DNA of 36,407 nucleotides from a virus. Below, in pieces: positions 2,895 to 31,919 of the stretch; position 1 is the stretch's first letter; each line of letters starts with the position of its first letter. The translations under genes were made by a program, and so were the position numbers. Below the pieces are notes generated by a model, which was given only the letters and a program-made list of their open reading frames with translations, was not told the origin of the DNA and made no database searches. The DNA lies in IMG/VR virus record IMGVR_UViG_3300004805_000018, positions 1-36,407 of that record. One strand, 5' to 3'.

Positions 2895-4301
2895 ATGGCA
2901 ATTTTAGATATATTCAAAAGCAAACAAAAGAATTCAACAGAAAGCAATACGCTTTTTGGTCAAACCGCATTAGGTAATGTGGTCTTACGCAATGCCAATC
3001 AACCCGCAACTGCCGCTGGATATCAACTTTTATATGTAACAACATCAAGCGTGACGGATGCTGGTCGCGTTATTGATATGTCAGTTTTGTCGCGCAATAG
3101 CACAATTATGTCATGTATTGGTGTCAAAGCACGCGCAATATCGCAATTGCCAGTTAAGGTAATGACTTATGGCAATAATGGCACAATGGTTGATGCTTGC
3201 ACCGACCCATCAGTAAGCAAACGCGACCAAGCCAAAGCCCGTTCAGTTTTATCCTTATTGCAAAATCCTAATCATTTTCAAAGCCAATACGAATTTTGGT
3301 ATCAATTCATTATGTGGCATGAATTGGCTGGCGAAACATTTACTTTGCTTTGGCGCAAAGACCAAGAACAAGTGTTGCAAACGCCATTGGAAATGTATGT
3401 ATTGGATTCAACGCTTATTACAGCGCAATTAACTGAAACTAGATATCCAGCATATAGAGTATCAACGCCAACTTATGGATTTTCAAAAGATGAACCATTA
3501 AAAGCGCATCAAATTATTCACATGATGGATGCGGCATGGCAAGGGTCAGGTTCATTTAATAAAGGCATATTGGCAACTGAATTGGTTGCTTTAGACCAAG
3601 ACATTGATTTATATGCCAACTTTGTTATGCAAAATGGGGCAAAGCCAACAGGCTTATTTAAAACAGACCAAGTTATTCCTGATTCGCGTTACAAAGAAAT
3701 TGCCGCCCGCCTAAAAGAAGCATGGGCAAGTATGACAGGTTCAAAGCAAACCGATTTAAGCAAGGCTGGTCAATCAATGCTGTTGGATAATGGCATGAGT
3801 TATGAAACAGTCAAAATGCTAACATTGCAGGATGCTGATGCGGCAAAATTAAAAGAACAAACTATGAAGCGCATTTGCGGATTGTTTGGTGTGCCGCCAC
3901 AGATGATTGGAATTGAAGCGGGCAAATTTAATAATTCACAAACAACCATTGATGAATTTTACAAAACATCAGTTTATCCAGTTTTAGTAAATGTTCAGCA
4001 AAAGTTAAAAGCAAGTTTATTGCAAGGATATCCAAACCTTTGCATTGAGTTTCAAACACAAGACTTTTTGAAAGGTGCGCCATTAGACCAAATGAATTTT
4101 GTGGTGGCTGGCGTATCAAACGGAATAATGACACCAAATGAAGCCCGTGAATATTTAGGCAAAGCAAATATTAATGGCGGTGATGAATTAAAAGACGGCA
4201 GTAGCCCAGCCCAACCAATTGCTGGCACAAGCCCGCAAGACACGGGCGGTGGCGGCAATACAAATTCAGTTGGCAAAACTGGTCAAGCTGGCAAAGCATA
4301 A
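2895..4301 (+). CDS. Portal protein, HK97 family
   Basis: A 468-residue portal protein, the dodecameric ring at the capsid vertex through which DNA enters and leaves and on which the tail is built. Family features are the CIGVKARAISQLPVKVM stretch near the N-terminus, the conserved YEFWYQFIMWHELAGE region, and the clip/stem-like GVPPQMIG and NNSQTTIDEFYKTSVYPVL-type segments in the second half. The C-terminus is low in complexity, rich in Gly, Pro and Thr. I chose the ATG at 2895 because AAAGGCG lies just upstream at suitable spacing. An in-frame TTG at 2865 would start inside the terminase gene and lacks a ribosome site. Confidence 0.93.
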   Translation: MAILDIFKSKQKNSTESNTLFGQTALGNVVLRNANQPATAAGYQLLYVTTSSVTDAGRVIDMSVLSRNSTIMSCIGVKARAISQLPVKVMTYGNNGTMVDACTDPSVSKRDQAKARSVLSLLQNPNHFQSQYEFWYQFIMWHELAGETFTLLWRKDQEQVLQTPLEMYVLDSTLITAQLTETRYPAYRVSTPTYGFSKDEPLKAHQIIHMMDAAWQGSGSFNKGILATELVALDQDIDLYANFVMQNGAKPTGLFKTDQVIPDSRYKEIAARLKEAWASMTGSKQTDLSKAGQSMLLDNGMSYETVKMLTLQDADAAKLKEQTMKRICGLFGVPPQMIGIEAGKFNNSQTTIDEFYKTSVYPVLVNVQQKLKASLLQGYPNLCIEFQTQDFLKGAPLDQMNFVVAGVSNGIMTPNEAREYLGKANINGGDELKDGSSPAQPIAGTSPQDTGGGGNTNSVGKTGQAGKA

Positions 4302-30403: not shown

Positions 30404-30745
30404 ATGAATGAACATCAAATACAAGTTGCCGTTATTACATGGTTTCGCCTGCAATATCCCAAGCTGATTATGTTTGCCATTCCTAATGGTGGAGTGCGTA
30501 ACATTGGCACAGCCGTCAAATTAAAAAATGAGGGCGTGTTGGCTGGCGTGGCTGATTTATTTTTAATGTCACCCAATGCAACCAGTCATGGATTATTTAT
30601 AGAAATGAAAGCGGCAAAGGGTAAAGTGTCAGACCAACAGAAATACTTTCTAGAACAGGCAAAGGCGCAAGGTTATTCGGCTTGCGTATGCCATTCATTT
30701 GATGAAGCCCAGGTGGTAATAAATAAATACTTGCACAATAGATAG
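30404..30745 (+). CDS. VRR-NUC domain nuclease
   Basis: A 113-residue stand-alone VRR-NUC protein (PD-(D/E)XK superfamily). Features: N-terminal NEHQIQVAVITWFRLQYP, AIPNGGVRNIG at 25-35, D51 in GVADLFL, E67 and K69 in LFIEMKA and the Q78 region SDQQKYFL. VRR-NUC proteins cut branched DNA structures, so it may process replication or recombination forks. The ATG has no visible ribosome site, consistent with leaderless or weak initiation. The gene is followed by a structured RNA with its own promoter. Confidence 0.88.
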   Translation: MNEHQIQVAVITWFRLQYPKLIMFAIPNGGVRNIGTAVKLKNEGVLAGVADLFLMSPNATSHGLFIEMKAAKGKVSDQQKYFLEQAKAQGYSACVCHSFDEAQVVINKYLHNR

Positions 30746-30759
30746 ATTTATATTATTGT
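30731..30759 (+). promoter_or_regulatory. Promoter for the structured RNA
   Basis: TTGCAC (30731-30736), a 17-bp spacer, and TATTGT (30754-30759). Transcription would begin near 30766, exactly at the first base of the structured part. The -35 box overlaps the last codons of the VRR-NUC gene. Confidence 0.55.
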
Positions 30760-30765
30760 TTTGTT

Positions 30766-30872
30766 TAAGTGGTAGAAGCAATGACCCGTGCGAGGGGTTT
30801 CAATTGCTACTACTATTTGTAGTAAGCCGTTAATCTTAATTCTCGCACAATTAAGGTTAGCGGTTTTTTTTT
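30766..30872 (+). ncRNA. Structured RNA with kissing hairpin loops
   Basis: About 107 bases between two genes. Hairpin 1: 30772-30782 pairs with 30803-30813 (one A-A mismatch) and 30784-30787 with 30795-30798, leaving a 7-base loop GTGCGAG at 30788-30794. Hairpin 2: 30827-30841 pairs with 30849-30863 (15 bp, two G-U) around the 7-base loop CTCGCAC at 30842-30848, followed by nine T. The two loops are exact reverse complements over their full length, so they can kiss. The region has a matched promoter upstream and the second hairpin is an intrinsic terminator. I do not recognise it as any known RNA family. It could be a free small RNA or a leader for the T5orf172-like gene. Confidence 0.65.
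30827..30872 (+). terminator. Intrinsic terminator of the structured RNA
   Basis: A 15-bp stem (30827-30841 with 30849-30863) followed by nine T at 30864-30872. The stem is longer than needed for termination, and its loop is complementary to hairpin 1. The next gene's ribosome site GGAG follows at once, so genes from 30884 need read-through or control of this stop. Confidence 0.85.
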
Positions 30873-30883
30873 GGAGTTTTGAT

Positions 30884-31237
30884 ATGGCTTATTATGGTTT
30901 TGTATATGTAATGGCAAATGAAGCAATGCCTGATTTTTTTAAAATAGGATTTACAGACAAAGCACCAAGTCAAAGGGCGGCTGAATTATCTAACACATCT
31001 GTGCCTTTTAATTTTCAATTGGTTTGTTATGGTGAAGTAGAAAATGCACAAAATTTTGAAAGAAAATTGCATGAAATTTATAGCGAAAATAGAGTAAATA
31101 CTCAAAGGGAATTTTTTAAATTTAGTGCTTCTGAAGTTTTAAAATTGTGTAATGTTATAAAAGAGCATTGTGATTTTTTTACTACTGGCGAAATTTATAA
31201 TTTTATTGAATATCAAGTTAGTAAGAAGGATATTTAA
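30884..31237 (+). CDS. T5orf172/GIY-YIG-like domain protein
   Basis: A 117-residue protein with the T5orf172 (MUG113-like) fold, related to GIY-YIG nucleases: GFVYVM at residues 5-10 (equivalent of the GIY strand), FKIGFT at 19-24, R31 in SQRAAEL, FERKLHEIY with E at 59 and 64, and REFFKF at 75-80. Proteins of this type occur in phages and may cut or bind DNA. The ATG at 30884 follows GGAG at good spacing. An upstream reading from 30788 would run through the structured RNA and is rejected. It ends one base ahead of the replication gene. Confidence 0.75.
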   Translation: MAYYGFVYVMANEAMPDFFKIGFTDKAPSQRAAELSNTSVPFNFQLVCYGEVENAQNFERKLHEIYSENRVNTQREFFKFSASEVLKLCNVIKEHCDFFTTGEIYNFIEYQVSKKDI

Positions 31238-31238
31238 T

Positions 31239-31919
31239 ATGCATTATTATCAATTTAACATAGCAGATTATCAATCACACACTAGGCATTTATCTTTAAT
31301 TGAGGATGTTTGTTATAGACGATTATTAGATTGGCATTATTTACATGAAAAACCTTTGCCGCTTGATATTGAAAAAGTAGCAAGATTGTTATTGTTAAAC
31401 GAATGTTTAGCGGATGTTGAACAAGTGTTAAACGAGTTTTTTAACAAAACAGAAGATGGTTGGGTTAATGTTCGTGCAATAGCAGAAATTCAAGAATATA
31501 AAGAAAAGATTGAAAAGGCTTCTATTGCTGGTAAAGCAAGTGCGGCTAAAAGAAAGGATAATATTAAACAATCTTTTAACGACTGTTCAACGGATGTTCA
31601 ACCAAACAATAACCATAAACCATTAAACAATAACCATAAACCAACAACCAATAAAAAACCATCGTGCGAAATCGCACTTGTTGTTGATGATAATTTTAAT
31701 TTGTTTTGGAAAGCATATCCCAAAAAATCAGCACCTGATGCCGCTAAAAAATCTTGGAATAAATTAAAGCCAAATATAACCGAAGTGTTAAATGCGCTTC
31801 AATGGCAACGGCAATCAGAACAATGGCAAAAAAATGGTGGGCAATATATACCAAACCCAGCCACATATCTTAATCAGGGTCGTTGGAAAGATGAACCGCC
31901 AGTTGAGGAGTTATGGTAA
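31239..31919 (+). CDS. DUF1376 / O-like replication protein
   Basis: A 226-residue protein. The N-terminal ~90 residues are a DUF1376 domain: MHYYQFNIADYQSHTRHLSLIEDV, then RRLLDWHYLHEKPLPLD and the winged-helix-like core. A linker with Asn/His/Lys/Pro repeats (NNNHKP twice) follows, then a C-terminal domain FNLFWKAYPKKSAPDAAKKSW with WQRQSEQWQKNGGQYIPNPATYL as in phage replication proteins. It should bind the phage origin and open it for the helicase. The repeated DNA that encodes the linker may itself be the origin (31604-31677). AAGGA precedes the ATG at 31239. The stop overlaps the next start by TAATG. Confidence 0.75.
   Translation: MHYYQFNIADYQSHTRHLSLIEDVCYRRLLDWHYLHEKPLPLDIEKVARLLLLNECLADVEQVLNEFFNKTEDGWVNVRAIAEIQEYKEKIEKASIAGKASAAKRKDNIKQSFNDCSTDVQPNNNHKPLNNNHKPTTNKKPSCEIALVVDDNFNLFWKAYPKKSAPDAAKKSWNKLKPNITEVLNALQWQRQSEQWQKNGGQYIPNPATYLNQGRWKDEPPVEELW
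31604..31677 (+). other. Candidate replication origin inside the replication gene
   Basis: The same 19-base sequence (AAACAATAACCATAAACCA) occurs at 31604-31622 and 31625-31643, a 21-base step of two helical turns, followed by a degenerate third copy to about 31661. Directly after is a hairpin, GTGCG (31664-31668) with CGCAC (31673-31677). The region is AT-rich. Lambda has its iterons in gene O in the same way. Confidence 0.5.

Follow-up and report, generated by a model that had tools for sequence, protein, structure and literature searches.

The window, by which we mean the whole stretch of 36,407 nucleotides of viral DNA analysed here (IMG/VR record IMGVR_UViG_3300004805_000018), contains a structured RNA between a VRR-NUC gene and the genes of a replication operon (Table 1). 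The VRR-NUC gene directly upstream serves as a syntenic marker of the place where the RNA lies. The T5orf172 gene separates the RNA from the DUF1376 gene, and its protein had a close relative in only two other contigs, identical to each other, in the protein search. The promoter, the terminator and the ribosome-binding site listed are read from the sequence.

Table 1. Genes and predicted RNA features at the locus
Feature	Position	Strand	Basis or remark
VRR-NUC gene	30404..30745	+	Pfam PF08774 E=5.4e-11; PHROG Holliday junction resolvase/endonuclease matches
Putative sigma-70-like promoter, TTGCAC-17-TATTGT	30731..30759	+	sequence; overlaps the end of the VRR-NUC gene; predicted start ~30766
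RNA of the window, assigned to type II	30766-30872	+	stable terminated form put at about 105 nt
P1 hairpin, 21 bp	30766..30819	+	fold; geometry matched in type II relatives
Loop L1, GTGCGAG, kissing partner of L2	30788..30794	+	sequence, fold; compensatory changes in relatives
P1 3-nt bulge	30800-30802	+	3' side, 5 bp under the loop
P1-P2 linker, 4 nt	30820..30823	+	fold
P2 terminator hairpin, 18 bp	30824..30866	+	fold, terminator scanner
Loop L2, CTCGCAC, exact reverse complement of L1	30842..30848	+	sequence, fold
U-run (nine T) of the terminator	30864..30872	+	sequence
Ribosome-binding site GGAG, for the 30884 gene	30873..30876	+	sequence
T5orf172 (GIY-YIG-like) gene	30884..31237	+	Pfam PF10544 E=1.2e-16; start 11 nt after the U-run
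DUF1376 primosomal/replication protein, next operon gene	31239..31919	+	Pfam PF07120 E=1.2e-21; PHROG primosomal protein E=3.6e-52

The RNA of the window folded with a minimum free energy of -42.6 kcal/mol (z -6.1), and none of 200 shuffled sequences was equally stable. The earlier note had proposed two hairpins with complementary loops, and the positions and the exact reverse complementarity of L1 and L2 were confirmed in the sequence; in both the minimum free energy and the centroid fold the two 7-nt segments are complete hairpin loops. Both stems are real but longer than it had stated, and P1 consists of 10 bp, a mismatch, 6 bp, the 3-nt bulge and 5 bp, with one further unpaired base on the 3' side. 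The nine T after the second stem were found as described. A terminator scan reported 18 pairs followed by the T-run (30824-30872) as an intrinsic terminator, the sole one between 30300 and 31300. It was also correctly placed directly before the next gene, since the U-run is followed by GGAG and then by the ATG at 30884. By eye, the 3' base of P1 and the linker (30807-30825) could form a small hairpin instead (TACTAC/GTAGTA). Such an alternative was also seen in the type II RNAs of L387 (GATGCC/GGTATC), L453, L456 and L463 and is possibly a competing structure.

The proposed promoter stood in part. Its boxes are present and their position at the base of P1 is kept in the relatives of type I described below, but the putative promoter is weak, with only 8 of 12 consensus positions, and was unreported by the scanner. 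In 120 of 159 type I members the P1 loop is preceded, at a distance of 16-17 nt, by a TATAAT-like -10 box, and this fixed distance places the predicted start at the base of P1.

Relatives with the same outline were found by several routes. When 2.45 Mb of phage DNA was scanned for terminators with a loop complementary to that of a hairpin further upstream, six distinct hits were obtained, and all had the outline that we call type II: a long hairpin at the 5' end, in which a 7-nt loop sits above a 3-nt bulge, then a terminator hairpin of 16-18 bp whose loop is the exact complement of the first, a U-run and a gene start close by. A pattern search for type II gave 40 stretches with 28 distinct sites. 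The loops were complementary in 22 of these, and none of the other six exceeded 16 bits against the type II model. Folding showed the same geometry in unrelated sequences, with L1, 5 bp, the 3-nt bulge, an outer stem and a short linker, followed by a P2 of 16-18 bp with a 7-nt loop; L468 is a type II member without the bulge. In the type II alignment 93.2% of the positions were paired and 26 of 42 pairs were altered on both sides, which no shuffle reached (0/500).

A type II model, R2, was built from 14 relatives, with the window excluded. It scored the window RNA at 60.4 bits (E=3e-13, a rough value as for all model E-values; whole window, filters off), with the runner-up at 11 bits; the window was missed when a larger set was searched under default filters. 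The geometry of R2 is found in the window: a 7-nt loop on 5 bp, a 3-nt bulge on the 3' side, a longer outer stem and a terminator stem of 16-18 bp with a complementary 7-nt loop. We assign the RNA of the window to type II of a new family of phage RNAs.

The commoner form, type I, occupies the same genomic place and comprises 159 distinct members at loci from protein and DNA-pattern searches. Its 5' hairpin P1 is short and bears a 7-nt loop, and its long P2 (8+1+8 layers) closes in a U-run; U-runs were also present in relatives that came from the protein search, without the DNA pattern. P2 holds a three-way junction with a linker complementary to the P1 loop, and in a second pseudoknot the strand joining P1 and P2 pairs with the P3 loop. 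The length of P2 is fixed, and its 5' strand was free of indels in 100 of 100 members. Among 37 type I sequences 97.4% of the cells paired, 34 of 41 pairs were altered on both sides, and no shuffle of 500 matched this; in the same 37, each of the six pairs that form the second pseudoknot was altered on both sides. In 100 sequences the nested helices were 99.1% paired. The second pseudoknot had at least 4 bp in all 100 members and 6 or 7 bp in 74, and since 4 bp are common in shuffled pairings too, its support comes from the column-by-column covariation. The type I model R1, with three-way junction, kissing linker and second pseudoknot, gave no match in the window.

The model used to align the 100 type I members left out the kissing helix. 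Nevertheless, the helix was full in 96 of them and had 6 of 7 pairs in the other four, with 10 sequence types. A first type I search pattern had fixed most of the kissing letters; with a second pattern that left both sides free, the exact 7-nt complement was found in 97 of 97 real members, in five types, and the single further hit was a chance match and not a member. The 159-member set was not used as a test of complementarity because one collection step had demanded it. The kissing pairs of type I were also recovered de novo by mutual information. As the members are related, sequence counts are not event counts; on a tree, 10-11 changes were found at each of three kissing pairs. Pair counting hinted that the kissing code is under diversifying selection. 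Tree parsimony gave no such signal, with the kissing pairs changing no faster than the other stems, and the idea was dropped.

Stem and loop-loop pairing are thus kept in the relatives of both types through compensatory changes, and the conservation of loop complementarity, whose absence had been named beforehand as grounds for overturning the proposal, was found. An ordinary terminator beside an unrelated hairpin, with loops that match by chance, is therefore extremely improbable. A single 7-nt match, at about 1 in 16,000, is all that speaks for it, against the compensatory changes (0/500 shuffles) and the 22 type II relatives whose loops are exactly complementary. It was rejected on these, on the 97 free-pattern complements and on the 2.45-Mb scan. 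Comparison of the relatives demonstrates the stems, the kissing helix and a fixed link to the next gene start.

The RNA had been thought uncatalogued, and no family of Rfam 15 reached its gathering score in the window; the family to which the RNA belongs is missing from that catalogue. The best match below threshold was CopA with 23.6 of 60 bits, and the CopA, MIR5200 and plastid matches were all discarded as far under the cut-off. The models of c4 RNA (RF01695) and int-alpA RNA (RF02996) had no match in the window. As far as Rfam and the available parts of the open-access literature describe them, none of IsrK, P4 CI RNA, c4 and putRNA has a kissing terminator. IsrK, P4 CI RNA and c4 are precedents for phage small RNAs that influence regulatory or replication operons of phages (PMC4825925, PMC12197685). 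IsrK of the Gifsy-1 prophage is like the window in having its own promoter and giving a short terminated RNA as well as an mRNA that reads through into a regulatory gene of the phage; it is unlike the window in that the accessible part of the source describes no kissing between a 5' hairpin and the terminator (PMC4825925). IsrK acts on an upstream ORF of an antirepressor mRNA (PMC4825925), and the window has no Rfam match. The P4 CI RNA with seqA-seqC resembles the window as a leader before replication genes with complementary segments and premature termination, and is described there as an antisense RNA that is processed and has two separate targets (PMC4825925). In contrast, both partners of the window lie within one RNA that closes in its own intrinsic terminator. 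The c4 RNA of P1/P7 is likewise a small structured phage RNA, which controls an antirepressor gene and has complementary segments probably in loops (PMC12197685, PMC2864571); antirepressor genes also follow some type II RNAs. It targets the RBS region of its mRNA, and such a partner was not found in type I by mutual information. The int-alpA RNA shares the slot between the VRR-NUC gene and the replication genes in L007, but differs from the window in fold and sequence, and by eye it has no terminator.

The space after the VRR-NUC gene was surveyed in viral contigs that were searched with the VRR-NUC protein, so that the RNA itself was unconstrained. This space is the slot of the RNA: type I was present in 38 of the 76 loci searched, and type II RNAs were found in L387, L390, L391, L393 and L398. 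Other slots hold an int-alpA or int-alpA-like RNA, in L007 (5356-5423) by Rfam and in L357, L359, L362, L367 and L368 by eye, below the Rfam cut-off, and some hold none of these. By eye, the int-alpA(-like) RNAs have a hairpin loop whose complement occurs once or twice about 20 nt further on, close to the RBS. In L380 the VRR-NUC gene is followed by a cluster of TTATNCACA DnaA-box-like repeats (1830-1950) and then by the type I RNA; the cluster is possibly a replication origin in one clade. As a general neighbour such clusters were discarded, being present by count in one collected member, with L429 similar by eye.

The RNA lies just before DNA-replication genes in many freshwater phages, and nearly all members are on metagenome contigs. 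Among named phages, MW202462 and MW202544, two Manatee Spring records of equal length, matched type I in BLAST; in MW202462 the RNA was confirmed by the model (L473:913-1015), and an unannotated open frame after it resembles the replication genes of the family. The closest VRR-NUC protein among named phages (55.7%) is that of Methylophilaceae phage P19250A (L474), where only 51 nt separate the gene from the next one, too few to accommodate the RNA; the match hints at a Methylophilaceae-like host for the phage of the window. A search with a single type I model found the RNA in 1 of 300 genomes of one order, that of an uncultured Burkholderiales bacterium, and by eye a DUF1376-like gene is nearby. 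The pattern hits in bacterial genomes gave no real member in 118 loci among the matches listed, which says little on absence.

Of the 125 genes downstream of the RNAs that were scanned with Pfam, 32 were DUF1376; others were HNH/NUMOD4, Lin1244-like or ParB-like, and many were unmatched. They span replication, HNH/GIY-YIG and antirepressor genes, the last of which follow type II RNAs in L038, L456 and L458. Since these genes are unrelated, control by a single gene product is argued against. In L038 a Rha/KilAC antirepressor gene is preceded by a type II RNA and an apparent replication gene by a type I RNA, and the kissing codes of the two differ (RNAs at 2864-2969 and 3657-3762).

In 149 of 153 type I members the next start codon lies 8-16 nt beyond the U-run, whereas a comparable spacing was found at 21% of 42 other terminator-like sites of the same loci. 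The anatomy suggests that the roughly 12 nt between U-run and start leave no room for a second promoter, so downstream expression would need read-through, and an operon transcribed through a terminator suggests a leader from which a small RNA is made as well. We therefore favour, with a probability of roughly 55%, that the RNA of the window is a type II leader heading the replication operon, at which termination is partial, read-through sets expression and a small RNA is also made. What counts against this is the weakness of the window promoter, the outcome of the type I scan described below, in which no conserved pairing able to switch the terminator was found, and the fact that an independent small RNA, together with compact gene packing, would give much the same anatomy, a spacing of this kind being present at 21% of ordinary terminator-like sites. 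Such an RNA would act in trans or bind a protein, and the read-through into the next gene would be incidental, from upstream promoters. The putative own promoter with the strong terminator, the compact fold without a conserved alternative pairing and the int-alpA RNA in the slot of L007, typed as sRNA by Rfam, are consistent with it. Yet the co-oriented start codon is found far more often than at other terminators and the downstream genes are diverse and unrelated, and we regard it as a rather unlikely explanation, though one to be reckoned with.

If the RNA is a leader with read-through, its own promoter of the sigma-70 type would start transcription at the base of P1, and the RNA would fold while being made. 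The P1 loop would then pair with the terminator loop in type II, or with the junction inside the terminator in type I. Most transcripts would stop at the U-run and give the stable RNA, and only the read-through transcripts would reach the start codon a few nucleotides on. The element would so set the expression level of the replication operon and yield a small RNA. Termination would be partial or conditional, and the kissing fold may tune it or may stabilise and protect the RNA. Within the type I RNAs and 30 nt beyond them, mutual information revealed no conserved alternative pairing of the antiterminator or RBS-sequestering kind, in a scan of limited sensitivity that missed the second pseudoknot, probably because its register varies. 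A classical two-state attenuator is thus not supported.

The fixed length of P2 in type I and the conserved bulge in type II suggest, indirectly, that the kissing contact occurs within one molecule. In a different scheme, the terminated RNA would pair in trans with nascent copies of the leader, or dimerise, and favour termination, with the loop as a specificity code. The many interchangeable kissing types among close relatives and the two codes in L038 would suit this self-silencing, and P4 CI RNA, c4 RNA and IsrK are phage precedents for action on phage operons (PMC4825925, PMC12197685). The scheme appears doubtful to us, as the kissing pairs change no faster than other stems on the trees, giving no sign of diversifying selection, and the fixed P2 and the bulge fit an intramolecular contact.

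The putRNA of HK022 binds the beta' zinc-binding domain and in this way suppresses termination downstream. That the RNA of the window is put-like, binding to RNA polymerase as it transcribes and making it resistant to terminators, is very unlikely. The likeness lies in the two stem-loops that open an early phage transcript, as in putL (PMC9378689). However, the element of the window itself closes in a full intrinsic terminator with a U-run, whereas putRNA promotes read-through, is about 70 nt long, and in that source neither a terminator of its own is described nor a pseudoknot mentioned (PMC9378689).

Taken together, two related classes of structured RNA are added to the phages, where few such RNAs are known. 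Both have strong covariation that includes the kissing helix, type I also has a second pseudoknot, and both have a fixed place before replication genes. As the pairing is easily broken and restored, the effect of a loop-loop contact with a terminator on a phage operon is directly testable. If the self-silencing were true, a phage would count its genomes or exclude relatives without a separate antisense gene. The outcome would be control of copy number or immunity to superinfection, and it would be the loop sequence that defines the compatibility group.
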